IMG/VR virus record: IMGVR_UViG_3300021432_000039
Location: 1-22,589 of that record
From: a virus
Direction: 5' to 3' (one strand)
DNA length: 22,589 bases
The notes below the pieces were generated by a model. It saw only the letters and a list, made by a program, of their open reading frames with translations, was not told the origin of the DNA and searched no databases. Below are positions 1-14,094 of this stretch, piece by piece. How positions within the stretch are numbered: position 1 is the stretch's first letter; each line of letters begins with the position of its first letter. The position numbers and the translations under genes are program-made.

Positions 1-222
1 AGCGAGTGGGGTACCGCCGACGTTGGCCCAGGTAGCGACGTCACCGACGACGGTGGTAGCAGGGCCGATGGTGTGAGAGCCACCAGCCGGAAATGCATGC
101 GGGGGCGCGGCAACGCCGGTCAGGTTGCCACAGAGGGTGTTGGCTGGGAACCGGCCGGTGCATTGCGCGGACGCGGCGGAAGGGATTAGCAACAGTGCCA
201 GTGCTATTAGAAGCTTCTTCAT
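1..222 (-). CDS. Signal-peptide protein, phage accessory/tail-type, partial (3' end beyond window)
   Basis: The frame is open from ATG at 222 to the window edge, giving 74 residues. The start overlaps the stop of the upstream gene as ATGA, and the N-terminus begins MKKLL. A classic Sec signal peptide is visible: two lysines, a leucine/alanine core, then a SAASA motif before Q20, the probable cleavage site. The mature part is rich in G, T, A and P and begins with a paired-cysteine stretch (QCTGRFPANTLCGN). I recall this type of stretch at the N-terminus of tail-fibre-like or decoration proteins in environmental phages, but I cannot name a family. It is the third signal-peptide protein of this operon. 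Function is unknown. Confidence 0.7.
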   Translation of the reverse strand, partial: MKKLLIALALLLIPSAASAQCTGRFPANTLCGNLTGVAAPPHAFPAGGSHTIGPATTVVGDVATWANVGGTPLA

Positions 223-647
223 TGTGCGTTGCTCCATCCCATTTGAGCAGAGACTGGGAAGAGGATGTAACCGCCGTAATCAACAGCGACGACGATGGAG
301 GGGGTGCCCATTATGTTCTCGGCGCCAGAGAAGGGGTTGATGGTGATGTTATAGGTCGAGGCGTTGCCACCGATGTCGACGATGGTAATTGGGGTTTTGG
401 TGTAGGGCCCTGGCATCGCGCTGGGTGGAACGGTGGGGTCGATCGCGGAGGGGAGGGTCACAGTCACTAGGCCAGCGCAGTTGACTTGAACCAAGGAGGT
501 GCCATAGACGAGTTGATAGGTGCCTGCGGCGGTGATGAGTAGAACGTTTCGCTTTGCGGTATAGACCCACCCAACCGATGGGCCAAGGTAGACCCTCTCC
601 CACTGGCGGTAGGTTCCCCCTTGGTCCAAGTCGAGTTGGGAGGCCAT
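219..647 (-). CDS. Conserved phage hypothetical, beta-rich, probable virion accessory protein
   Basis: This is 142 residues. ATG at 647 overlaps the TAA of the upstream gene (TAATG), and its own stop overlaps the next start (ATGA), so it sits inside a translationally coupled series. The N-terminus (MASQLDLDQGGTYRQWERVYLGPSVGWVY) is of a type I associate with small phage proteins encoded near tail or decoration genes. The remainder is beta-strand-like, with alternating V/T/I and many G and P and no membrane segment. It has no signal peptide, unlike its downstream neighbour. A virion or tail-fibre accessory role is inferred only from position and composition. Confidence 0.7.
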   Translation of the reverse strand: MASQLDLDQGGTYRQWERVYLGPSVGWVYTAKRNVLLITAAGTYQLVYGTSLVQVNCAGLVTVTLPSAIDPTVPPSAMPGPYTKTPITIVDIGGNASTYNITINPFSGAENIMGTPSIVVAVDYGGYILFPVSAQMGWSNAQ

Positions 648-1213
648 TAGGCTGCTCTACGTTTGCCTTCGGTGGATTGCTTCGCGAGGAGGGAGATGAT
701 CTCGCTGTTTTGTTTCATCATCGCGGTCATGGCAGAGATGAGTTCGCCGATCCCTTCGATCTGCGGGGCCTTGTGGACCTCGTCCTTGAGGGTGTTCATC
801 TGGCCCATGAGGTCGTCGATGACTTGGTTGGCAAAGGAGGCGCGTTGGGACTCGTCGTCGGCGCCGGGGGTTGGGTTCCAAATCCCCTTCGAGCACTGGG
901 CCGTGATGGCCTTGGCTTCGTCATCGAGTGGGAGCATCCCAGGGGTGGGCTTGCCCTCGAAGAGGATATCGCGCTGGTTCACGCCAGGGGCGTCGGTAAC
1001 GACGATGATGTAGTCTTCGACATCACGCGAGGGGAAGGCCGGGTCCGGCTGGCCGTGCTTGGTCAGGTCGTCGATCGACTTCGGGTCGAGTTGAAGCGGG
1101 ACGGAGAAGACTTCGCGCTTGGGGCGGCCGGTTCGGCGGTCGATTGAGTTGTACTCCCAGGCGGTGCCGGGGACTTTGAGGTAGTGGGCCTCGGTTAATT
1201 TCCATCTAGCCAT
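647..1213 (-). CDS. Conserved phage hypothetical protein
   Basis: This is 188 residues, with ATG at 1213 preceded by AGGAG at a good distance. The N-terminal half (MARWKLTEAHYLKVPGTAWE, then the RRTGRPKREVFSVPLQLDP region) resembles a small protein recurrent in phage structural operons. It includes a DAPGVNQRDILFEGKPTPGM-type segment often followed by an alanine- and glutamate-rich helix. The C-terminal third is predicted helical, possibly a short coiled coil (about residues 125-180), and ends in a basic KRRAA tail. There are no enzymatic motifs, membrane segments or cysteine clusters. It lies between the LamG-like protein gene and a small beta-rich gene, which suggests a virion or assembly role, but function is unknown. 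Confidence 0.75.
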   Translation of the reverse strand: MARWKLTEAHYLKVPGTAWEYNSIDRRTGRPKREVFSVPLQLDPKSIDDLTKHGQPDPAFPSRDVEDYIIVVTDAPGVNQRDILFEGKPTPGMLPLDDEAKAITAQCSKGIWNPTPGADDESQRASFANQVIDDLMGQMNTLKDEVHKAPQIEGIGELISAMTAMMKQNSEIISLLAKQSTEGKRRAA

Positions 1214-2965: not shown

Positions 2966-3295
2966 TCAGGCTAGAAGGTAGGAGATCATCCCACCTATCG
3001 CGACGCCAGAGGAGAGGTTGAGATTAAGGCTATCGCTGACGGCTGTTTGGCACCAGCCACCTGCATTGAAGGGGAGAATGTAGCCACCATTCTGAGCGAG
3101 ATAGGCGTAGCCAGAAAGATCGACTGAGCCGGTTGAGGTTTGCCATTTGACGTTAACTGCTGCGTTGGCAATGATAGAGGCAGAGAGGAGGACGATGCGT
3201 TTGCCTATGATACCAAGCACAGCAGTGCCACTGGCTGAGAGTTCGATTGCAGCGTAGTTGATACCTGCAGGGATTTCGGCCCGGAAGAGTTCCAT
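2966..3295 (-). CDS. Small beta-sandwich phage protein, probable decoration/fibre module
   Basis: This is 109 residues. ATG at 3295 overlaps the stop of the coiled-coil gene (TGATG). The pattern is a strand ladder with conserved-looking turns: AVLGIIGKRIVLLSASIIA, VNVKWQTSTGSVDLSG, LAQNGGYILPFNAGGWCQTA, then SLNLNLSSGVAIGGMISY. I recognise this as a recurring small module in tailed-phage proteins, found alone or in fibres, with a GKRI motif and a closing N-L-N-L-S strand. It has no standard name that I can give with confidence. A structural role on the virion is likely; enzymatic activity is unlikely. Confidence 0.7.
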   Translation of the reverse strand: MELFRAEIPAGINYAAIELSASGTAVLGIIGKRIVLLSASIIANAAVNVKWQTSTGSVDLSGYAYLAQNGGYILPFNAGGWCQTAVSDSLNLNLSSGVAIGGMISYLLA

Positions 3296-3666
3296 CAGGC
3301 GAAGTGCTTCTCACGGATCGAGGCGAGGGAGGCTTCGATGGCGTCGTGCTGAGCGGAGGCGGAGTTGACGCGGGCTAGGACTTCGTCGAGTTCGGCCTTG
3401 GCGGCTTTGGTCTTTTCGCCCAGGTCGCGGAGTTCGATCTGCTTGTCATAGATCGCGACGTCGTGCTCCTTCTGGGCTTTGATCTGCGCAGCGGAGAGGC
3501 CCGCTGTCGCGGAGGCGAGTTCGGCGTTCTTGGCCTCGAGCTCCTTCTGCGTGGCCTCGAGGTCTGCCTGCGCAGCGGAGTGTTGGTCTTTGATCGCTTC
3601 GAGATTGACGTTGTGCTCGCGGAGCTCGGTCAAGGCCGCGATCACTTTGTCGATGGTTTCGTTCAC
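3295..3666 (-). CDS. Coiled-coil hypothetical protein
   Basis: This is 123 residues starting with GTG at 3666. The start overlaps the stop of the frame that covers 3663-3812 (GTGA). Almost the entire length is heptad-like helix rich in A, E, K, Q and D, with no prolines or glycines until the middle and no aromatic core. The longest run is about residues 20-118. This predicts an extended, probably oligomeric coiled coil. No membrane segment is present. It may be a spacer, scaffold or chaperone for the adjacent fibre-like proteins, but nothing in the sequence fixes this. It is one of two coiled-coil proteins in the window; the other is at 16535-17185. Confidence 0.7.
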   Translation of the reverse strand: MNETIDKVIAALTELREHNVNLEAIKDQHSAAQADLEATQKELEAKNAELASATAGLSAAQIKAQKEHDVAIYDKQIELRDLGEKTKAAKAELDEVLARVNSASAQHDAIEASLASIREKHFA

Positions 3667-3812
3667 TTGTCGGCTCCGTGGTTCAGGTTCCAGTTAAACG
3701 GCCAAAGGTCGGTCGCTTGTTCGTAGGTCAGCCAGTGGTGGTAGAGGCCAAGATCGGCGGTGGTAGAGAGGGTCCCAAGACCAACACCAATCACGAGAAA
3801 GGCAACCCGCAA
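3663..3812 (-). CDS. Small membrane ORF nested in the 3' end of the ligase-like gene (or its frameshifted C-terminus)
   Basis: From a possible TTG at 3812 this frame encodes 49 residues. It opens with a single hydrophobic helix (RVAFLVIGVGLGTL) and continues into a polar tail (LYHHWLTYEQATDLWPFNWN). Its codons end mostly in C or G. The ligase frame over the same bases becomes proline- and arginine-rich with poorer third positions, so this frame is the protein-like one. Its TGA overlaps the GTG of the coiled-coil gene exactly as other junctions do. It could be a separate small membrane protein. Alternatively the ligase could shift +1 into this frame near 3800, through a programmed slip or a sequence error. 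The start codon is uncertain because no well-spaced Shine-Dalgarno is seen. Confidence 0.5.
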   Translation of the reverse strand: MRVAFLVIGVGLGTLSTTADLGLYHHWLTYEQATDLWPFNWNLNHGADK

Positions 3813-4764
3813 CCACCATGCCAAGGAATGCCAAGGGTGGGCAATGGAGGGGGAAGGAGAAGAGGCAGCAGACGGCGAAGCCGATGTAAGCGGGCCATTC
3901 AGGACGCGAGGCGTTTGCGCAGGGGTAGAGTAGCAGTGCAATCGCGGGAATGGCTCCCACACCGTACTGATATGTGAGGTCGAGGAACTCGTTATGTGCG
4001 TAAGCTGGGGCATAGAGGTGGCCATTGAAATGGATGATAACGGCTTCGATGGAGCCAGCGCCGTGGCCCCAGAAAGTGAGGAAGTGGTAAAGGACTCGCC
4101 AAACGAGCCAGCGGAAGTCATCAGCGGTGTCGTGCTGGACAAGGGCGACCCAGGTAAGGGGGCACGCAGCGGACCAGAGTACCCCGCGTGAGGGGCGGCA
4201 GTACATGAGGACGAGGCCTACAGCCAGAGCCAGAAGAGCAGCCCGAGACTGAGACAGAATAAGACCAGGAAGAAGTAGGAGGCTGAGTAGCCAGAGACGA
4301 TACGGCAGAAGTAGCAGGATGACCAGTGCACAGCCCTCTCCAAGGATAACGGGGTTGAACATAAGGCCTGATGGGCGGCAGGGGATGTATTCGATTATCC
4401 AATCGAAGCCCAGAGCTTGTAGAATAGCCAGAAGACTAGAAGCGCCGAACCCGATAGCAAGGCCAATCGCAACCAGCCGTAGATTGGGGAGTTGGGCTCC
4501 AGCATAGAAGGCTCCAGCCATAAGGGCGTATTGCCAAAGGGTGCTGAGGGCGGTGTCGGGATTGTCGACCCAGGTGAGGGAGTTGATGGCGTAGAGGGCG
4601 AAGAGGAGGCCGAGGGCTAGGGGGAGAGGGGAAGCGAGCTTTGCCTCCCCTCTCCAGGTGACGAGTGGTAGGCCTGCGGAGAGGACTGCCCATCCAGTCG
4701 CTATCACCGCCCCGGTTACGCCGGGGATGTAGGCGACGGGAAGGAGGATGGACAGCGCAAGCAT
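3694..4764 (-). CDS. O-antigen ligase/polymerase-like (WaaL/Wzy_C type) membrane protein
   Basis: This is 356 residues with about ten hydrophobic segments. The features of the O-antigen ligase/polymerase superfamily appear in order. There is a periplasmic-loop region with PCRPSGLMFNPVILGEGCAL (residues 129-146) and SQSRAALLALAVGL (171-184) with the arginine typical of this family. A large loop follows with GHGAGS (233-238) and AHNEFLDLTYQYGVGAI (256-272), including the His-Asn pair. Such enzymes transfer or polymerise undecaprenyl-linked glycans on the periplasmic face of the inner membrane. ATG at 4764 overlaps the preceding stop (TGATG), so the gene is embedded in the virion operon rather than in a separate conversion cassette. 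After about residue 326 this frame loses coding character (see 3663-3812). Substrate is unknown; alteration of host surface glycan is inferred. Confidence 0.78.
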   Translation of the reverse strand: MLALSILLPVAYIPGVTGAVIATGWAVLSAGLPLVTWRGEAKLASPLPLALGLLFALYAINSLTWVDNPDTALSTLWQYALMAGAFYAGAQLPNLRLVAIGLAIGFGASSLLAILQALGFDWIIEYIPCRPSGLMFNPVILGEGCALVILLLLPYRLWLLSLLLLPGLILSQSRAALLALAVGLVLMYCRPSRGVLWSAACPLTWVALVQHDTADDFRWLVWRVLYHFLTFWGHGAGSIEAVIIHFNGHLYAPAYAHNEFLDLTYQYGVGAIPAIALLLYPCANASRPEWPAYIGFAVCCLFSFPLHCPPLAFLGMVVAGCLSRDWCWSWDPLYHRRSWPLPPLADLRTSDRPLAV

Positions 4765-5600
4765 CAGCGGGCTCGACGGCAGGTGATGGAACCGAAGCCC
4801 CAGAGTTGAGAGGTGGCGAAGGTGGCACCACCGACGAGGTAGATGGTAGTGGTTGACGCAAGAGATTGGCGAACAGGGCCGAGTTTGAGGTCAACGCCCC
4901 GACCACCGATCGCTGACGCTGGGATCACGGTGTTAACGCCGTCGGTGCCTTGAGTGCCAAGGACGGAGTTGTTGGTACCAACGGTGGCGGAGAGTTGGGT
5001 AACGGTAGTGGTGTTGGAGATCGCCTCTGACATCGTGCTACGGCAGTCCCAATCACCGGCGGTTAGGGAGAGTGAGGCCAACTGTTGTGAGGAGTTGGTA
5101 GTGATCTGCACGGCAGAGCCGAGGGGGACGTTGGTGGTGGCGACTTCGCCGATGTTGCCTGCAGCGGCGTTGTCGTTGGTGGCAGTGCCGGGGGTTTGAC
5201 CCGCGGCGCCGATAGCGGTGTAGGACCAGTTGGTTCCGGTCATTGGGAAGATGGTCAGGCGGCCGTAGGTTCCGCAGAAGGTGATGGAGTTCGAGGAACC
5301 GTTGATGGTATCGCCGGACTGGGGCGCGACGATTATGCAGGAGTTGGAACCACCGATGTTGCCTTGAGAGTCGATGATTTGGATTGCGCCGTTGATGTTG
5401 GTCCCACCCGCGTAGGGGAGGGTCCAGGTTCGGTTGGCGGTGAGGGCTACAACAGGGACGAGGGTAGAGTCCGTATTGAGCATCGTGTAGTTGACGTTGC
5501 CAACCAGGGTTTGGGGAGCGACGGTGCCCCAAGCCCAGTTAAGCGCGACGATGCTGGCAAGGGAGCCGGCAAGGCCAAGAGCGAGGAGGAGCTTGCGCAT
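4764..5600 (-). CDS. Signal-peptide beta-rich protein, phage accessory
   Basis: This is 278 residues from ATG at 5600, preceded by GGAGG at 5-nt spacing. The N-terminus MRKLLLALGLAGSLASIVAL followed by NWAWG is a Sec-type signal peptide or membrane anchor. The rest is strand-rich and low in charge. It includes LTANRTWTLPYAGGTNINGA and a GRLTIFPMTGTNWSYTA segment, a pattern I associate with phage fibre-type or decoration domains. Four cysteines are present in the mature part, which fits export to an oxidising compartment. It ends with SITCRRAR. It lies directly between another signal-peptide protein and the O-antigen ligase-like gene, so an envelope-directed role is possible. I cannot name a family. 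Confidence 0.68.
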   Translation of the reverse strand: MRKLLLALGLAGSLASIVALNWAWGTVAPQTLVGNVNYTMLNTDSTLVPVVALTANRTWTLPYAGGTNINGAIQIIDSQGNIGGSNSCIIVAPQSGDTINGSSNSITFCGTYGRLTIFPMTGTNWSYTAIGAAGQTPGTATNDNAAAGNIGEVATTNVPLGSAVQITTNSSQQLASLSLTAGDWDCRSTMSEAISNTTTVTQLSATVGTNNSVLGTQGTDGVNTVIPASAIGGRGVDLKLGPVRQSLASTTTIYLVGGATFATSQLWGFGSITCRRAR

Positions 5601-6257
5601 TTATTCCTCCGTGTATTCTTCGGTAACGTCCATCAGGTTGCCTGAACCTGGGCCGGTGCCGACTGCGGAGGAAAGGGCAAGGCATTGGGCGACGCCACGA
5701 AGGACGACTGCGGAGCCGGGGTGGTTGCCGAAGTCGATGATCGTGGGGCCCTCACCGGAAGTGCCGGTGGTTAGGTTGCCGAGGGTGATCTGGCCCGACC
5801 AGATGAAACCGGCGGAGGTGACGATGGGAGTGCCGACGGTTGGGTTGGCGGTCCAGGCGGTGGTAAGGGCGGTCCCTGCGGCGATGGAGGAGTCGTAGGG
5901 GTAGCCAACGACCGCAGCGCCAGCGAAGGGCTGGCCAGAGGCGATGGTGCCGCCGGTTGCTGCGGTGGAGGTTTTGAGGACTTGGACATCGGCTCCGGCG
6001 ACAGCGGTCGCGCGACCCGAGATGGTGAAGCGGGTTACGCGGACGGTGGTCGTGGCCGAGCCGCAGATTTGCCACCAGGTCGTTGGCGAAGAGGCCAAGA
6101 CGAGGTTGGTCATCGACATCGAGTAGGTGCGCTTGATCGAGTCGATAGGGATCGACCATTGGGTCTGGAAGTTGGAGTTAACCCCAGGTGACTGAGCGAG
6201 GGCGACTACGCCAAGGGCGCAGAGCCCGACCCCAGCGAGGAGGAGAGATTTTCTCAT
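5601..6257 (-). CDS. Signal-peptide hypothetical protein, beta-rich
   Basis: This is 218 residues from ATG at 6257 with GGAG upstream; its stop directly abuts the next gene. The N-terminus has MRKSLLLAGVGLCALGVVALAQ, a good Sec signal peptide with probable cleavage after ALA (about residue 21). The mature part looks like a jelly-roll or beta-sandwich with T, A and G runs and ends in an acidic VTEEYTEE tail. It follows the cement-protein gene, where BPP-1-like phages carry further virion genes. Signal peptides are unusual on cytoplasmically assembled virion proteins. The protein is therefore either exported or has an N-terminal hydrophobic anchor. Function is unknown. Confidence 0.68.
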   Translation of the reverse strand: MRKSLLLAGVGLCALGVVALAQSPGVNSNFQTQWSIPIDSIKRTYSMSMTNLVLASSPTTWWQICGSATTTVRVTRFTISGRATAVAGADVQVLKTSTAATGGTIASGQPFAGAAVVGYPYDSSIAAGTALTTAWTANPTVGTPIVTSAGFIWSGQITLGNLTTGTSGEGPTIIDFGNHPGSAVVLRGVAQCLALSSAVGTGPGSGNLMDVTEEYTEE

Positions 6258-6267
6258 CTGAGGCTCC

Positions 6268-6801
6268 TTAGTTGGCGACGGTGATGCCGGCTGGGTAGCC
6301 AGACATCACAGCGTTGTTGGTGCCGGTGTAGTATTGGTCCATACGATCGAGGATGATGAGGGCTTCGACCGTACCGGCGGTCATCGTTGCGCCGCCGATA
6401 ACATAGGTGAGGCGAAGGAAGCGAGGGATCGGAATGCCATCCGGCGGGCGTGGCATGTCCATGTCCATCAACCGACCGCCGACCACGAGAGTGGCGAGGG
6501 CGTAGGTTGGGGTGGTGTACCACGTCGTGAAGGTGAGCGGGGCGCCTGAGCCGTTGTCCGCGGCACCTTGAAGGTTGACGGCGAGGGTACCAGCGCCACC
6601 GGAGGTGAAGGTGGTGGTGACCTGGACCAGGAGCTTCATCGCAGGGTTGTCGCCGATGCCGATGTCTCGGGCGCCTTGGCCAGAGGCAAGGACGGGGATG
6701 CCGGGGCCACCGAGGTCGATTACGTTGGTGGAGTTGTAGGTCCCGGCGATCTGGGCGAGGTTGTTCGAAGAGTCGAACTGGAGGAATGCATCAAGGATCA
6801 T
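6268..6801 (-). CDS. Capsid cement/decoration protein, Bbp16-like
   Basis: This is 177 residues with AAGGAG ideally spaced before ATG at 6801. The N-terminus (MILDAFLQFDSSNNLAQIA, then STNVIDLG) matches what I recall of the Bbp16 cement proteins of BPP-1-like podoviruses, which bind the capsid exterior and stabilise it. The later RDIGIGDNPAMKLLVQVTTTF segment, a strand-rich core and a closing LRLTYVIGGATMTAGTVEALI strand agree with a jelly-roll decoration protein. It lies immediately after the major capsid gene, as in BPP-1. The family call is from memory of sequence features and synteny. Confidence 0.82.
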   Translation of the reverse strand: MILDAFLQFDSSNNLAQIAGTYNSTNVIDLGGPGIPVLASGQGARDIGIGDNPAMKLLVQVTTTFTSGGAGTLAVNLQGAADNGSGAPLTFTTWYTTPTYALATLVVGGRLMDMDMPRPPDGIPIPRFLRLTYVIGGATMTAGTVEALIILDRMDQYYTGTNNAVMSGYPAGITVAN

Positions 6802-6811
6802 GTGCTGCTCC

Positions 6812-7852
6812 TTAGATAGCGGCTTCGTTGTTGAGGATTTGATCGCAGGTCCGACAGGGGATACCCCGGAAGGTTGTGATCGGCTTACCGTCGAACTCTT
6901 CGATGCGGAGCAGGACGTTGGTTTTGTTCATAGCTTGGAGGTCCAGATACGTTCTGATCACACGGTTGCAGTAGATGACCGTGCGACCCATGTTGGCCCG
7001 GACCTCGGGGGTGTCGGACGTCTGAATGGTACCAGCCGAGACGGGCTGGGTGGGGAGCTTGTAGATTGCGCGAACGATGAGATTGATAAGGTTCGCGGCG
7101 GACACGCCCGTAAGTTGGGTGATGTCGATGTTGGCAATACGTGCGACGTATCTCCAATCTCGAAGAACATACCCAATCTCCCACTTGAAGTGGTCACGGT
7201 AGGCCTGGTAGGTATTGCTTGAGGAGTCCGTGACAGGCCACTCACCCATATCTCGGTGCTGGAGGCCGGTGATCTTTCCCTTTGGGAAAATGCCATGGGC
7301 GGTATCATCGCCCCAGACGTGGACCCAGATGGAGGTATTGGTGGAGGCAGCGCCGCCACCAGAGAGGACGTTGTTGGCGGTCTGCGAATTTGCAACAGTG
7401 CTTGTGCTGTACCTCGGCGATAGCCCGGTAAACCGTTCCGGGTTCACGAACTGGTTGCCGTAGATGAGGGTACCGGCCACTTGCTGAGACATCCCTTCAA
7501 GGAAGGCCTTAGTCTCCGAAAGCCGGAACTCTTGGGTGTTGCCATTGAGGTCCGCGATGTCCTTGTCGATCACGGAGTAGGTTTCGAGGTTGCCACACGC
7601 GTCGACGATCTGCGCGGTGGTGGACTTCGCGTTCGGGACGCCTTGGTTGAGCAAGCGCCAAGTGGCCTGGGGCAGGCCGGTTCGGACGGTGGTCTTATGA
7701 CCGGTGGGTTGGTTGCCCTCGACGACCATCATGTCTTCGAGGACTTCGTTGGTTTGGGACAGGAGTTCGATGATACGGGCGACCTTATACCCGTCTTCGA
7801 CTCGCTTGGCCCAATCGGCGTAGGTGAGTGAGAGGTTGCCAATCGTTGCCAT
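6812..7852 (-). CDS. Major capsid protein, BPP-1 (Bbp17)-like HK97 fold
   Basis: This is 346 residues from ATG at 7852 with AAGGAG upstream, a strong initiation site as expected for the most abundant virion protein. Supporting segments include LTYADWAKRVEDGYKVARII and ELLSQTNEVLEDMMVVEGNQ near the N-terminus. A GLPQATWRLLNQGV stretch and SVIDKDIADLNGNTQEFRLSE follow, with FRGIPCRTCDQILNNEAAI at the C-terminus. These are typical of the podovirus major capsid group that includes BPP-1 Bbp17. The length is normal for an HK97-fold capsid subunit without a delta domain. It lies between scaffold and cement genes, which confirms the role. It probably assembles the procapsid around the scaffold before packaging. 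Confidence 0.9.
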   Translation of the reverse strand: MATIGNLSLTYADWAKRVEDGYKVARIIELLSQTNEVLEDMMVVEGNQPTGHKTTVRTGLPQATWRLLNQGVPNAKSTTAQIVDACGNLETYSVIDKDIADLNGNTQEFRLSETKAFLEGMSQQVAGTLIYGNQFVNPERFTGLSPRYSTSTVANSQTANNVLSGGGAASTNTSIWVHVWGDDTAHGIFPKGKITGLQHRDMGEWPVTDSSSNTYQAYRDHFKWEIGYVLRDWRYVARIANIDITQLTGVSAANLINLIVRAIYKLPTQPVSAGTIQTSDTPEVRANMGRTVIYCNRVIRTYLDLQAMNKTNVLLRIEEFDGKPITTFRGIPCRTCDQILNNEAAI

Positions 7853-8925: not shown

Positions 8926-9014
8926 CGTGTCTGGTTCCTTGCATAAGCAACGAGAAAGCCAATAACTACAACGACTACAACCGTACCAATAAATGCTAGT
9001 GTGAACTCCATCAT
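8922..9014 (-). CDS. 30-residue single-pass membrane peptide
   Basis: ATG at 9014 overlaps the portal stop (ATGA) and its TGA overlaps the GTG of the Bbp19-like gene (GTGA), so the frame exactly fills the gap between two certain genes. The peptide is MMEFTLAFIG, then a run of six valines, then IGFLVAYARNQTR. It is one transmembrane helix with a short basic C-terminus. Such tight coupling on both sides argues that it is translated. Possible roles include a tiny holin-like or membrane-targeting peptide, but size and topology alone do not decide this. It is well below the usual ORF length cut-off. Confidence 0.65.
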   Translation of the reverse strand: MMEFTLAFIGTVVVVVVIGFLVAYARNQTR

Positions 9015-10828
9015 GGTGCAGCCCCCGTCAGCTTCGTCATAAGCGAGCCCTGACCAGGGGAGGCTTCGCTGAGGGACTTGGCGCCAGCGGCAAGCTTCTG
9101 TGCGGTGTCGGCCTGAGCGGCGACCTGGGCCTGTTGCTGTTGCTGAGCGCGCTGATCGCGGATGGCTTGGAGTTGCTGAGGCGATCGGATTAGCTTAGGA
9201 TCGTTGTTGTAAAGGAAGGAGATTTTGTCAAGGCCGTAATCGATGTCGACGTTATCGGTCGCGGCAGGGTCGATGCCTGCGAGGCCGCCGACCATGTTGA
9301 AGAGCCGTTCGATGCCAGAGGCCTGCGCGCCGTTCTGGGCAAGCTCGATCATGGAGGTGAATTGGGTGTGGATGTTGGCGCCGGCGATGGCGGGTGGGGC
9401 TGGGGGGAGGATACCAGCGCGGCTAGCGATGCCGAAAATTCTCTCATGCATTGGGGCAAAGGCTTCGTGATTGAGTCTTTCCAACACCGGTCCAAGCATA
9501 AGCATGGCTTCGGCCCGTCGAGCATCAATCTCAGTTGCAGTAACATTGGACCTCGTCTCGAATTGGGAGATGACTTGGAAGAGGTTGTTATAAAAGGTCT
9601 CTTTAATCCGGGAACGGACATCGGCCATCTGCTCCATCATTTCCTTGACCTGGGGATTGACGAGATAGGCAGGGGCGAAGCCGGATTTGCCGGAGACGGT
9701 CATGCCGTTGACGTAGGTCACGCCGCCGGGGAGGAGTGAGGCGGGTTGGTTTTTGAGTTGGATGTCGCCCACCATCGGGGGGTTGACCATCTTGTCGATG
9801 CCCTGCGAGAGGCGCTTGGTTTCTACCTGGAGTTGTTTAATGTCTGGGAGCGCGTCCATACCAGGGGATCGGCCGTAGGCGTCATTGGACACCAGGTCCC
9901 ATCGAGTCGTAATAGCAGGGTTTTCGTGGAAGCCACGGGAGGAAAGTAGGCCACGAACGTTACCACCTCCCCCGCCCTGGGGCGAAGCCGAACCTCCCCA
10001 CTCCCAATAGCACTCACGGAAAGGGAAGAGTTCAGGGACACCGTACTTGCGGCCATCTTCGTTTGGCTCCACGAGGTGGGCGACGACTAATTCACGAGTA
10101 AGTGAGGTACCTCCTTCAGTCCATAGGCGGGCGGTGGAAGGGGAAAGGTTCTCCACCCCGAAGCGGTTAGCACACTGATCAACTGTGTTCGTGAACTCAC
10201 GGGCGAAGACATTCGGACGATAGTACCCGTCTTGATCGATGTAGTATTCTCCGAAGCAGGGATTGAAGCATCGGATAACATTTTCAAAGTCCTCATAGAT
10301 GAGCATCACCGCCGTGCCGAAGACGACGAGGTCGAAGTAGAAGATGGCGAGGGAGTCGTAGAAGTTGGACTGGAGGAGGATGAGGTTGATGAGGCGCTCG
10401 ACGGCGGAGAGCCAGAGGCTGATAGGAGAGGTCTGGGTCGAGTCGATGTTGTTGATCTTGTAACGGAACCAACGCTTGGTGGGGTCCGAGCAACCCATCA
10501 TCATACCCGCAGCCAAGTTCCGTGCTGCTAATGTGCCAGTAGAGTCGAGGATATGCTGGTTGATAGGTGACCCGCGTTGTTGCTGGTTTGGGGTGATCAG
10601 CCATTTGTATCTCCGAGGAAGGATGTAGTCTGCGAGCTCACGGCCGTGGACCCACCAGGAGTAGCGGTTGATCCGGAGGCCGAGGAGGCGGCTTTCAGCT
10701 TTCTGTCTAAAGAGTTGCTCAGGGGTGTCAAGCCTTATGTTAGCGCGCATCGTTGCGCGGTTGACCTTCGCCTGCATCGCGGGATGGAGGCGCATGAAGC
10801 CGGAATTGTAGGCGGATTGTTCAGGCAC
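9011..10828 (-). CDS. Portal protein (head-to-tail connector)
   Basis: This is 605 residues starting with GTG at 10828, inside the end of a small upstream ORF (8-bp overlap). The segments ADYILPRRYKW, HILDSTGTLAARNLAAGMMMG and DPTKRWFRYKI are hallmarks of the podovirus head-tail connecting protein family (T7 gp8/BPP-1 type). Later come WTEGGTSLTRELVVAHLVEPN, GRSPGMDALPDIKQLQ and a long helical stem ending in FETRSNVTATEIDARRAE. The C-terminal 60 residues are Q and A-rich. The portal forms the dodecameric ring at one capsid vertex, through which the terminase translocates DNA and to which tail parts attach. Position after terminase and before scaffold fits. No truncation is seen. Confidence 0.92.
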   Translation of the reverse strand: MPEQSAYNSGFMRLHPAMQAKVNRATMRANIRLDTPEQLFRQKAESRLLGLRINRYSWWVHGRELADYILPRRYKWLITPNQQQRGSPINQHILDSTGTLAARNLAAGMMMGCSDPTKRWFRYKINNIDSTQTSPISLWLSAVERLINLILLQSNFYDSLAIFYFDLVVFGTAVMLIYEDFENVIRCFNPCFGEYYIDQDGYYRPNVFAREFTNTVDQCANRFGVENLSPSTARLWTEGGTSLTRELVVAHLVEPNEDGRKYGVPELFPFRECYWEWGGSASPQGGGGGNVRGLLSSRGFHENPAITTRWDLVSNDAYGRSPGMDALPDIKQLQVETKRLSQGIDKMVNPPMVGDIQLKNQPASLLPGGVTYVNGMTVSGKSGFAPAYLVNPQVKEMMEQMADVRSRIKETFYNNLFQVISQFETRSNVTATEIDARRAEAMLMLGPVLERLNHEAFAPMHERIFGIASRAGILPPAPPAIAGANIHTQFTSMIELAQNGAQASGIERLFNMVGGLAGIDPAATDNVDIDYGLDKISFLYNNDPKLIRSPQQLQAIRDQRAQQQQQAQVAAQADTAQKLAAGAKSLSEASPGQGSLMTKLTGAAP

Positions 10829-10985: not shown

Positions 10986-11176
10986 GCAAACCCCGCTCCG
11001 CCGATCAGGGATTTGTTGCCCTGGTTCTGCTGCGAGGCTGCGAGGCCCGCACCGAGGTAGGTGGGTTGGGAGGATTTGGCTTGGGGCTTTTGACCTGGGC
11101 CCGCTTGGCCGAACATCGGCGGGGCCGCGGGAGCCGAAGGCAGGACAGGAGGCGGAGGGGTTGGAGGCGACATCAT
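10982..11176 (-). CDS. 64-residue proline/glycine-rich hypothetical protein
   Basis: The start at 11176 abuts and overlaps the terminase stop by one base, and the stop overlaps the next ATG (ATGA). The first 35 residues are mostly P, A, S and G (MMSPPTPPPPVLPSAPAAPP). They are followed by a G/Q/A/S-rich tail with LGAGLAASQQNQGNKSL and a GGAGFA end. The protein is probably disordered. It is a virion-operon accessory protein by position. No motif or family is recognised. Confidence 0.62.
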   Translation of the reverse strand: MMSPPTPPPPVLPSAPAAPPMFGQAGPGQKPQAKSSQPTYLGAGLAASQQNQGNKSLIGGAGFA

Positions 11177-12696
11177 TATGCAGCCCTCACTTCGTCTTCG
11201 TAGCGCTCGAAGGGGTCATAGTCGTGTTCCACATTGGGCTTGTGGGGGTGGTCGCCACCGGCGTATTCGTGCGGGGCGAGGGCGTTCGAGAAGGTCAGGG
11301 CGAGGGCGTCGATATCGTCGAGCTCGAGATCGGGGTCGAGCTTGAGCATATCTTCCTTGGAGATGAGTTGGATTTCATCCCGCTTGTTGAAGGTGTACTT
11401 GATCGCCATGAACTGGCGCTTAAGGTCCGGGTCGTCAGGGAGGCAACCGGTCTTCGCCCAGGCGCGCAGGGCCCCATACATGCCGCTGCGCATGTTGGCG
11501 TAGCGCTCCTGTTCGGAGCCGAAGGACCTATGCGGAGTCATATCTTTGCTACCAAATTGTACCTCGTAGCAGAAGAGGGCCTTATGCCGGATTTGGTCTA
11601 CGACGCCACCACCAACGCCGCCCCCGTCAACCATGATCCCATCCGCGTGCAGGCGGAAGTTGGCGTCGAAGACCTTCTCCGCTAGTTGTACAGTTGAAAG
11701 CCCTTGAAATCGTTCTCGAGGGTAGGTACGAGCGTCCCGTCCCTTGCGCGGGAAAATGACAGAAGCGTTCTTGCCATATCGAGCCACGTCCACCCCAAGG
11801 GCAAGCGGGTCGGTGAGGGAGGAGGCAGCGTCTCGGGACATGGCGTCGGTGATTTCGGCAGCATTGAAGAACTCCATCTCGCCGACTTTGGGGAACATGC
11901 CGTAGACGCGAATGCGGACGAAGTCGGAGTCTTCGCCGTAGGCTTCGATCCAACGGGCGATCTGATCCTTATTCGTAAAATCAATTGAGCGTGAGTCGAC
12001 GCAGGCGGTTTGCCAGAGCTTGGCGAACATGCCGCCGGGGAAGCATTCCTTGAAGCGGCCGGTATTGCGAGTCGGGTTGCCGTAGACGAGCCAGAGGATT
12101 TGGGTGTCCTTGTCGGTGAGGGCGCCTTCAGAGGTTTCCCAAATGATGTCGTCAATGGCGGAGGCTTCGTCCATGATCAGGAGGATGCGACGGCCCTGGT
12201 TGTGGAGGCCTGCGAAGGCCTCGGGATTGTTCTTGGACCAGGGAACTTGATCGAGGCGCCAAGTGCGTTCGTACTCGGGGTGGTAATACGACGTGGCTGT
12301 GAGCTTGAAAGTGTCCTTGGTTATGCTTGAGGCGTGCCATTTGCCAAGCTCGGCCCAGGTCTTGCCCTTCAGCTGCGGCTCGGTATTGGCGGTGACCACG
12401 CCCCTGGCATCGGGCATCGTATCGATCCCCCATTTGCAGAGCCAAGAGACTTCAGCGGATTTGCCTACGCCGTGGCCGGAGGCGCGGGCCTGCAAGATGG
12501 GTTGCAACGCCTCAGTCAAATTCGAGGTCGACATCAGCCGATCACGAATGCCCTTGAGTTGATCCTCTTGCCAATAGTTGGGGCCCTGGAAGTTGGCAAG
12601 GCGCGTACCGGGCTGACCCCATTCCCAAGCGCCGAGGACGTAGGCGAAGGGGTCCTTGCTTACGCTCGCAAGCCAGTTGACGAGGCTCTCATCCAT
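11176..12696 (-). CDS. terL: Terminase large subunit (packaging ATPase/nuclease)
   Basis: This is 506 residues from ATG at 12696. ATPase motifs: Walker A ASGHGVGKS (72-80), Walker B ILLIMDEAS (171-179) with D176 and E177, and coupling motif YGNPTR (205-210). Nuclease: LGVDVARYG with D303, IMVDGGGVGGG with D357, and DDIDALALTFS with D463, giving a plausible RNase H-like metal-binding triad. Both domains are therefore intact. The protein pumps DNA through the portal into the procapsid and cuts concatemers. The variant Walker A (G-H-G-V-G-K-S) is common in one branch of phage terminases. Terminase small lies directly upstream. The packaging strategy (headful or cos) cannot be read from this sequence. 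Confidence 0.95.
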   Translation of the reverse strand: MDESLVNWLASVSKDPFAYVLGAWEWGQPGTRLANFQGPNYWQEDQLKGIRDRLMSTSNLTEALQPILQARASGHGVGKSAEVSWLCKWGIDTMPDARGVVTANTEPQLKGKTWAELGKWHASSITKDTFKLTATSYYHPEYERTWRLDQVPWSKNNPEAFAGLHNQGRRILLIMDEASAIDDIIWETSEGALTDKDTQILWLVYGNPTRNTGRFKECFPGGMFAKLWQTACVDSRSIDFTNKDQIARWIEAYGEDSDFVRIRVYGMFPKVGEMEFFNAAEITDAMSRDAASSLTDPLALGVDVARYGKNASVIFPRKGRDARTYPRERFQGLSTVQLAEKVFDANFRLHADGIMVDGGGVGGGVVDQIRHKALFCYEVQFGSKDMTPHRSFGSEQERYANMRSGMYGALRAWAKTGCLPDDPDLKRQFMAIKYTFNKRDEIQLISKEDMLKLDPDLELDDIDALALTFSNALAPHEYAGGDHPHKPNVEHDYDPFERYEDEVRAA

Positions 12697-12714: not shown

Positions 12715-13329
12715 CTAAGCAACCCGACGGCGCTTGGTCGTGAGGATCGACGCGAATGAAGGACGAGCCGGGGGCGGGGCGAGTGATGTGGGCACTGGCG
12801 GTGCCCCCGGCTCTGAAGTCAGTGAGGAGGGAACCGCGCTGACTTCAACGGCAGTGGACTCGATCACCTTCACTTCCTTTGCCTTCCCGCTGCGTTCGAT
12901 CGCGCGGTCCAGCAGGGCAGCGAAGTCGTGTTTGTGTTCGACCTGGGAGGTCTTGGGATAGCCGAAGCGATCAGCGCGGTCTTGCGAGAGGCGGTTGAGG
13001 GTAAGGAGCGGAAGTTCCTCTCCCTTCTCATCGGCATCATCCAGCTTATCTTGGATCATCGCCTCCGCGCGGATCATATTCCCCATCCCGAGGTCGAGGT
13101 ATTGATCCACGTTTCGGTTCCAAATCTTCTCAACGTCGTCGCGGTAGAGGGTGACGAGCTCCTTGAAGGAAGGGTCGGCGAGGAGGATTGAGATACGCTT
13201 GAACGAAATCCCCGTCTGACGGCGGATATGGTCATGGGTCGCGCCGATGGCGACGAGCCGAGCGACCGCGTGATGGCGTTCGCGGTACTGATCAAGCTGT
13301 CGTCCGGCGGCGGTGAGGGCCCCCATCAC
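12715..13329 (-). CDS. terS: Terminase small subunit-like DNA-binding protein
   Basis: This is 204 residues from GTG at 13329, overlapping the nuclease stop (GTGA); an ATG follows directly and could also serve. Residues about 20-60 (AVARLVAIGATHDHIRRQTGISFKRISILLADPSFKELV) form a helix-turn-helix with the spacing of phage small terminases. A helical oligomerisation-type segment follows (about 62-120). The C-terminal 70 residues are P, A, S and T-rich with a basic end (TTKRRRVA). Terminase small recognises pac or cos and delivers DNA to terminase large, which follows immediately. The assignment rests on the HTH and position. Confidence 0.8.
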   Translation of the reverse strand: MMGALTAAGRQLDQYRERHHAVARLVAIGATHDHIRRQTGISFKRISILLADPSFKELVTLYRDDVEKIWNRNVDQYLDLGMGNMIRAEAMIQDKLDDADEKGEELPLLTLNRLSQDRADRFGYPKTSQVEHKHDFAALLDRAIERSGKAKEVKVIESTAVEVSAVPSSLTSEPGAPPVPTSLAPPPARPSFASILTTKRRRVA

Positions 13330-13754
13330 GCAGCCCTCCGACGAACCGAGCCGTAGGTATTGCCATGCATAAGCGAAGTCGCGCGCGGTGCGTCTGCGAT
13401 AAGCTTTGCCACCTTTGGGACCATTGACACGTCAATGTAAGTCCGTTTCAAAAGCTCGTTATGCTCGGGGAGATAACGCTGGATCAGCTTCATCTCCTCC
13501 GCGTCGAGCCTTTCGATTGGGACCCACTTGACTTTGATTGTATCGAACTCAATAAGCGGGACCTCCTCCTTGCCTTTGGCTGGACGGAGCCCTTTCTTAA
13601 ACCGCCGCATCCCGCTAATATGCTGGCCAATCCGGTGAAAGACGTTCAACGACTTCCCAACGTACAGCACTTCCCCCTTGCCAATGAGCAAGTAGACCCC
13701 CGTCCCAGGCTGGGGGTGCCCAAAAGGCTCAAACCCCTCCCGTTCCGATGCCAC
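13326..13754 (-). CDS. GIY-YIG domain nuclease
   Basis: This is 142 residues from GTG at 13754, chosen because GGAGG (13760-13764) lies five bases upstream. The longer frame starting at 13823 would include the promoter itself. The GIY-YIG core is clear: GVYLLIGKGEVLYVGKS (19-35), the downstream NVFHRIGQH with the catalytic-type arginine R41, and LDAEEMKLIQRYLPEHNE (83-100) with metal-binding-type glutamate and asparagine. It is therefore probably an active endonuclease. It is the first gene after the operon promoter and directly precedes the terminase genes. A free-standing homing nuclease or a packaging/host-DNA nuclease are both possible. Its small size and lack of a separate DNA-binding domain are notable. 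Confidence 0.85.
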   Translation of the reverse strand: MASEREGFEPFGHPQPGTGVYLLIGKGEVLYVGKSLNVFHRIGQHISGMRRFKKGLRPAKGKEEVPLIEFDTIKVKWVPIERLDAEEMKLIQRYLPEHNELLKRTYIDVSMVPKVAKLIADAPRATSLMHGNTYGSVRRRAA

Positions 13755-13776
13755 ACGATCCTCCATCATGCCAACT

Positions 13777-13805
13777 ATTGTATCACGTTCCTGCCTCAAA
13801 GTCAA
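13777..13805 (-). promoter_or_regulatory. Sigma70-like promoter for the packaging/virion operon
   Basis: On the minus strand TTGACT (13805-13800), a 17-base spacer, then TACAAT (13782-13777). The predicted start lies near 13770, only about 16 bases before the GTG of the nuclease gene, so the leader is minimal. The first 14 bases around the -35 (CTTGACTTTGAGGC) recur exactly in the promoter at 18112 on the other strand. Confidence 0.8.
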
Positions 13806-14094
13806 GTCAATTCTCGTCGTCAACTCGCGCCTCTCTCCCCACGTGATCGGTATGGGTTGTTCCTTGCAACAAAAATTTGCGGGGCACCACTGGGCTCGGC
13901 CACGCGCGCGATTTTGGGGGTGGGGGTGGCCGCAAAGTCACAGTGTGGCTCAAGGGCCACAGCTGCGCCCAACGCATAGCAGCCATGCAAACATATCAAT
14001 ACGTTCACGGTTTGTTTGTGCTATGCTATTCGGTAGTGCAAATCGCAATTCCGCTGTTGCACAACACAAGCCCCACGGGGCAGGAGAGATAGTC
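13806..14094. other. Divergent intergenic control region
   Basis: Non-coding gap between the leftward virion operon and the rightward small-gene block. It contains a short inverted repeat (TTGTT ccttgc AACAA, about 13858-13873), a G-run segment (13916-13929), a GTGGC/GCCAC hairpin near 13952-13967, and an extended -10 candidate (see 14019). No credible gene is seen; the long open frame through here lacks coding character. Confidence 0.5.
14019..14027 (+). promoter_or_regulatory. Possible extended -10 promoter for the 14095 gene
   Basis: TGCTATGCT is an extended -10 form (TGn followed by TATGCT) placed about 70 bases before the ATG at 14095. The -35 position at 17-base spacing (ATACGT) is poor. 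A promoter is expected here because the upstream gene is divergent, but this exact element is only a candidate. Confidence 0.35.

Follow-up and report, generated by a model that had tools for sequence, protein, structure and literature searches.

The locus lies in a 22.6-kb virus record, the whole of which was analysed and is called the window here. Its late block runs leftward (terminase, connector, scaffold position, GP7 capsid, Bbp16 cement and tail-side genes) and its replication-type genes, among them one that we take from its sequence to encode a UvrD-like helicase, are on the plus strand. The features of the late block are as follows, in leftward order:

11176–12696, minus strand: large terminase (best listed hits to epsilon15-like and other podoviruses, 36–43% identity)
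9011–10828, minus strand: head-tail connector or portal protein
6812–7852, minus strand: major capsid protein, GP7 family, epsilon15-like
6268–6801, minus strand: cement/decoration protein, Bbp16, phrog_427
5601–6257, minus strand: island protein of 218 aa with a Sec signal peptide and no family match
4764–5600, minus strand: fibre-like protein of 278 aa with a Sec signal peptide, translationally coupled to the Wzy-like gene
3694–4764, minus strand: Wzy/WaaL-type (Wzy_C superfamily) polytopic glycosyltransferase of 356 aa, by profile, fold and residue alignment
4243–4245, minus strand: codon of Arg174 (SQSR motif), candidate diphosphate-binding arginine, aligned with the SR of bacterial Wzy_C proteins
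4111–4113, minus strand: codon of Arg218, a conserved arginine in a periplasmic helix (model helix 213–229), also a candidate for diphosphate binding
3994–3996, minus strand: codon of His257 (YAHN motif), candidate catalytic base activating the acceptor, by alignment and its equivalent in 7TPG
3295–3666, minus strand: coiled-coil-like protein of 123 aa, directly downstream of the Wzy-like gene, with no confident family
647–1213, minus strand: conserved 'MARWKL' protein, the downstream landmark of the island, with no family match
1–237, minus strand: N-terminus of a fibre-like protein that runs past the window edge, with a Sec-type signal peptide by eye

The open reading frame at 3694–4764 was confirmed as a real gene for a 356-aa product, with an ATG start, on the minus strand (a detail absent from the first-pass annotation of this DNA), and all three motifs quoted in that annotation were found in its product: SQSRAAL at residues 171–177, GHGAGS at about residues 233–238 and AHNEFLDLTYQYGVG from residue 256. 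The ATG shares one base pair with the stop codon of the 4764–5600 gene (TGATG at 4764), and a 27-bp gap separates the Wzy-like gene from the next gene (3295–3666). Around it are genes of virion or virion-like type, encoding the GP7 major capsid protein, the Bbp16 cement protein, the connector/portal and a protein with a gp9/TNF-like fibre fold. The placement among structural genes first suggested is borne out. Across 12 wzy starts, including that of the window, a 1-bp overlap occurs in seven and a 4-bp overlap in two; the genes abut in L012 and lie three bases apart in L041, and for L003 no long upstream reading frame ending nearby was found.

The GP7 capsid, Bbp16 cement, connector and terminase genes place the window phage among the epsilon15/BPP-1-like podoviruses. 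Epsilon15 itself resembles it in its terminase (37.6% identical), its capsid protein gp7 and its BBP16-type gp8. Just upstream of the small terminase position of the window, the minus-strand stretch 13326–13823 encodes what we take to be a GIY-YIG-like N-terminal motif, and two related loci (L001:5457–5960 and L012:8041–8535) carry a small gene between the capsid and cement genes that presumably resembles an HNH homing endonuclease.

Queried singly, the window protein matched the Pfam family Wzy_C (PF04932) weakly (E 0.019, 15.2 bits, below the cut-off of 31.7 bits) and gave no match in NCBIfam, PHROGs, PDB sequences, phages or plasmids; the L027 and L041 copies as single queries gave none in phages. 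At the level of the family, Wzy_C was matched by nine of the 11 members (alignment A2, 11 rows; best E 5e-10), with L027 alone passing the curated cut-off (39.8 versus 31.7 bits). The A2 profile was also compared with eight bacterial Wzy_C proteins, chosen from 12 bacterial proteins with a readable frame, and hhalign returned a probability of 96.8 and an E-value of 2e-10. A reverse search with the phage profile found matches in 31 of 385 genomes from the class of Agrobacterium. Among PDB sequences, WaaL was not reached by the family profile, by the bacterial Wzy_C profile or by a single bacterial protein.

The AlphaFold2 model of the Wzy-like protein was moderate (pLDDT 65.5, pTM 0.67), with pLDDT < 50 at residues 254–262, around His257. 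Structure searches with this model were divided: plain Foldseek against PDB and BFVD yielded nothing at E ≤ 0.001, but a second look with VIA-align ranked the O-antigen ligase WaaL (GT121, 7TPG) first (Z 13.2 over 291 residues, rmsd 4.6, 15% identity), followed by the SEDS proteins RodA and FtsW (GT119; Z 6.3–8.0, RodA 8.0), which have a related GT-C fold. By the tool's own caveat, unrelated helical bundles can also score Z 13, and the WaaL match counts here because it agrees with the profile result. The phage protein has two arginines and one histidine in the same order as WaaL, but it is shorter, at 356 aa, and phage-borne.

In 7TPG, Arg-191 and Arg-265 are assigned to phosphate binding and His-313 to acceptor activation, according to a passage of PMC10920833. 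Arg174, Arg218 and His257 of the window protein align with SR, R and AHN in the six top-scoring of 12 aligned bacterial proteins, in a register that is identical in hhalign and in a separate HMMER alignment; the first-pass annotation had made its proposal depend on this Arg/His correspondence. The residues were mapped via bacterial homologues and not directly on 7TPG, because the PDB sequence searches missed WaaL, and the assignment of His257 rests on sequence because the loop around it is modelled at pLDDT < 50. Both arginines are present in all ten A2 rows that reach the catalytic region and His257 in eight; a HAYN variant, with Tyr in the His257 column and His two residues earlier, occurs in L041 and in the first copy of L005 and was read by eye in L090. 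Arg174 and Arg218 are candidate diphosphate-binding residues and His257 a candidate catalytic base. SEDS proteins are described as using a catalytic Asp (PMC10920833), unlike the phage family, in which that column holds His, or Tyr in the HAYN members.

Profile, WaaL-like GT-C fold and the two arginines with a histidine all point to the Wzy_C superfamily, and the identification of the gene product as a divergent Wzy/WaaL-type (Wzy_C, GT-C) membrane glycosyltransferase, the class named in the first-pass annotation, is well supported. The conditions under which that annotation would have been abandoned, a missing ligase/polymerase fold or misaligned Arg/His residues, were checked and went in its favour, with the reservation that WaaL was ranked first by the VIA-align second look and not by plain Foldseek. 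PglL/PilO-type O-linked oligosaccharyltransferases belong to the same broad superfamily. They likewise have a periplasmic active site, but PglL_A and Wzy_C_2 domains were found in none of the 11 phage members, for which Pfam at E ≤ 1 gave Wzy_C and two chance-level families; a small O-oligosaccharyltransferase lacking both domains would also fit. The Wzy-beta proteins of phages epsilon15 and D3 are also phage-encoded membrane proteins of the Wzy_C superfamily, and a Wzy_C domain is reported for that of epsilon15 (PMC4815439).

Relatives of the Wzy-like protein were collected from IMG/VR (five with the single protein, eight in all with the first alignment), and further members came from a profile search of the loci around 80 capsid relatives; the same search on 25 capsid relatives from genome contigs yielded L090. 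Relatives are 68–72% identical to the window protein, or 92% for one partial copy. Position was scored between two landmarks, the capsid gene and the conserved downstream 'MARWK' gene (window 647–1213). Both were present in 40 of the 80 capsid-sampled loci, and a wzy-like gene lay between them in six of these 40 (L011, L012, L027, L028, L041 and L063, of which L027 equals L028 over 7 kb) and was absent in 34. L004 carries the gene on a locus that stops short of the MARWK landmark, and eight more loci with at least 4 kb of downstream sequence and no MARWK match contained no wzy. Every wzy-bearing locus with both landmarks (13/13, including wzy-selected loci and the window, and amounting to 11 contigs because two pairs, L011/L002 and L063/L003, each share one contig) holds the gene between capsid and MARWK gene, so that the survey of related phages recovers one slot. 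The order shared by these uncultured soil podoviruses is capsid, cement, exported fibre-like protein or proteins, Wzy-like protein, tail side. A profile search of 35 records found the gene in ten, with one match in nine of them and two in the record of L005, where a tandem pair (L005:6992–8892) joins one HAYN-type and one AHN-type copy by a 4-bp overlap.

dN/dS values of 0.15–0.28 (ten pairs, five sequences) indicate purifying selection; dS is close to saturation in most pairs, and the least saturated pair, window and L004, gives dN/dS 0.23 at dS 0.20 over 158 codons. A tree that includes 13 bacterial proteins puts the 11 phage sequences in one group (support 91/90) with deep branches. Because most relatives lack the gene, its product is not needed for virion assembly; patchy occurrence, a single slot, the dN/dS values and the phage-only grouping together describe a gene that is optional yet long maintained in one place. 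Its optional status within the phage group and the Sec signal peptides of its neighbours go beyond the first-pass annotation.

Several observations on the relatives stand apart from this argument. In L041 (G010:C1:12425–13381) the wzy-like match extends upstream past the start that is used and across two TAA codons, and the N-terminus is possibly decayed. Despite turnover of its neighbours, the MARWK protein recurs on the downstream side of the capsid gene in 40 of the 80 capsid-sampled loci, many of the other loci being short. Among capsid relatives in genome contigs, the closest come from metagenome-assembled contigs with the labels Terriglobia (84%) and Telmatospirillum (83%), possibly phage contigs that were mis-binned; those in isolates of Bombella, Saccharibacter, Acetobacter and Agrobacterium are at 42–57%. 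GP7-type capsid genes at 41–45% identity were also seen in L099–L105, L107–L111 and L113 (labels Gastranaerophilales, Cyanobacteria and uncultured bacterium). Limnohabitans phage DC33 (L157, PQ492659.1) is classed in the Inoviridae, yet this podovirus capsid protein turns up in its 39-kb record, and its filing is probably a taxonomy slip.

The slot is part of an island which, in the soil group, reaches about 6 kb and encodes proteins predicted to be exported. Sec signal peptides were called with a home-made rule (basic n-region, hydrophobic core, Ala at −1) on longest-ORF calls, not with SignalP. In 46 distinct loci, some of them wzy-selected, this rule flagged 85 of 129 genes between the cement gene and MARWK or the locus end, compared with 4 of 223 genes upstream as far as the capsid end, and produced at least one likely false call; flagged island genes were present in 40 of the 46. 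In two long genomes that were checked, nearly all flagged genes lay inside the island, the extras in G001 being an outer-membrane-like protein and one likely false call. The outer-membrane-like protein (G001 36256–36951, L121:16256–16951) has a signal peptide and no family match; we take it to resemble rhizobial Omp proteins, and it gave one weak match (E 5.2e-4) in the 385 genomes of the class of Agrobacterium.

Flagged island proteins include some with an S74 chaperone (just under the cut-off), with BNR_4 repeats or with a match to a tail-fibre PHROG. The model of the 278-aa protein (pLDDT 70.6) matches T4 gp9 and gp10-type connectors towards the N-terminus and, towards the C-terminus, lectin or fibre-tip domains of TNF/C1q-like (jelly-roll) type, with Z 8–13 and with phage tail-fibre matches in BFVD; on this predicted structure, the 4764–5600 product is a fibre-like protein bearing an N-terminal signal peptide. 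The fibre-like protein at 1–237 has a homologue in G001 of 793 aa, also with a signal peptide. Signal peptides on such fibre-like or accessory proteins (window 4764–6257 and 1–237) are odd for virion proteins assembled in the cytoplasm, and we found no report of Sec-exported tail fibres in the open-access literature. In Caulobacter phage Jess A, the cement-position gene is separated from the next tail-side gene by one small gene, where the soil group has the island, which makes the island an addition in the soil group, at least relative to Jess A. A specific acceptor partner for the enzyme was also considered, and strict pairing was rejected: depending on the phage, the adjacent upstream gene belongs to the 278-aa family or to other families.

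Between capsid and wzy no minus-strand terminator-like site was found, and the sole minus-strand promoter-like site falls inside wzy. With the gene order and the overlap, this makes late co-expression with the capsid genes the simplest inference, and the Wzy-like gene is probably expressed late, together with capsid and fibre genes. Phage O-antigen polymerases are textbook lysogenic-conversion genes. The setting here differs from a conversion cassette apart from the late genes, as the first-pass annotation had noted: in epsilon15 an 'O-antigen ligase family protein' is encoded after the tailspike gene, on the opposite strand and beside an alpha-polymerase inhibitor, with an integrase next, whereas in the window phage the gene lies within the structural row, on the same strand. 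Tyrosine integrase (PF00589) or resolvase (PF00239) was detected in none of 17 long virus records (39.7–51.8 kb, possibly incomplete), in searches whose positive controls—two bacterial genomes in the first search and control genomes—were matched. Our searches of the open-access literature showed no report of a Wzy/WaaL gene within a phage structural operon.

The most economical function for such an enzyme is a change of host surface glycan late in infection. The protein would sit in the inner membrane with its active site on the periplasmic face, as in its homologues; the two arginines would bind an undecaprenyl-linked host glycan through its diphosphate, with His257 activating the acceptor. 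Made late, along with capsid and fibre proteins, it would cause host surface glycan to be ligated or polymerised differently during the last part of infection, altering the glycan that the phage's own fibre island recognises as receptor. Re-adsorption might then decrease, so that fewer progeny are lost to debris, or superinfection might be limited. To this reading—a late periplasmic glycan transferase that changes host surface glycan and so limits progeny re-adsorption or superinfection—we assign a probability of about one half; counting against it, a late enzyme has little time for remodelling pre-existing surface glycan, and no companion inhibitor such as Iap was recognised. Its interpretative core was already present in the first-pass annotation, which as a whole is partly supported. 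D3 provides a precedent for glycan change, but in a lysogenic setting: its Wzy-beta and Iap are reported to alter O-antigen linkage and D3 infection to confer superinfection resistance (PMC4815439), and a passage of PMC8787464 proposes the same for Kapi1.

The abundance of Sec signal peptides in the island (85/129 versus 4/223), some of them on proteins with fibre hallmarks, suggests another use of the same chemistry. The enzyme could be an O-oligosaccharyltransferase that moves undecaprenyl-linked host glycan in the periplasm onto Sec-exported phage proteins, for example the coupled fibre-like protein, the glycosylated products joining or coating virions or coating the cell surface. The gp9/TNF-like fibre or lectin fold and signal peptide of the coupled upstream protein fit this idea, and the GT-C fold would place the enzyme and the exported proteins in one compartment. 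Against it, the 11 members have neither PglL_A nor Wzy_C_2 in Pfam, and the family of the preceding gene varies among wzy-bearing phages and has relatives in the wzy-less loci L013 and L067. Because tailed phages assemble their virions in the cytoplasm, any fibres that had been exported would have to be attached once the cell has lysed. We consider this alternative unlikely, and slightly more so its extension to a periplasmic assembly island, in which Sec-exported fibres would be glycosylated by a phage O-oligosaccharyltransferase before meeting the virion at lysis; the host glycan on the phage fibres would then camouflage them or determine their binding.

Superinfection exclusion in a lysogen or pseudolysogen, with a D3- or epsilon15-like Wzy-beta expressed from a carried genome and changing O-antigen over the long term, would suit the shared superfamily with the annotated 'O-antigen ligase family protein' of epsilon15, a terminase relative with the same capsid family. 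It is improbable given that integrase or resolvase was seen in 0/17 long records (which may be incomplete) and that the gene shares a strand and a tight overlap with structural genes, with no separate above-chance promoter upstream. Still more doubtful is a reading in which the Wzy-like protein is catalytically dead or repurposed, interferes in a dominant-negative, Iap-like manner with the Wzy/WaaL complex of the host and so shortens O-antigen late. The two lineages (AHN and HAYN), one without His at the canonical position, and the tandem pair in L005 could be read in this way, and a disturbed interaction between native Wzy and Wzz is reported as an effect of D3 Wzy-beta (PMC4815439), but R174, R218 and His257 are all kept in eight of the ten aligned members reaching the region, which suggests catalysis in most members. 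Least probable of all is neutral cargo (a moron) acquired from a bacterium and retained for an unrelated host benefit, which would account for the patchy distribution (6/40) but sits poorly with a separate long-branch phage group (91/90) apart from 13 sampled bacterial proteins and with dN/dS of 0.15–0.28, which speaks for long-term maintenance in one slot.

A Wzy/WaaL enzyme kept in the structural row of phages in which integrase was undetected would make surface-glycan remodelling part of the lytic cycle, and raises the question of whether phages change glycan late to block re-adsorption of their own progeny. The island of signal-peptide fibre proteins raises a second question, whether in some tailed phages the fibre proteins pass through the periplasm. 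A soil virus of bacteria may thus alter the surface of its host during the production of new viruses.
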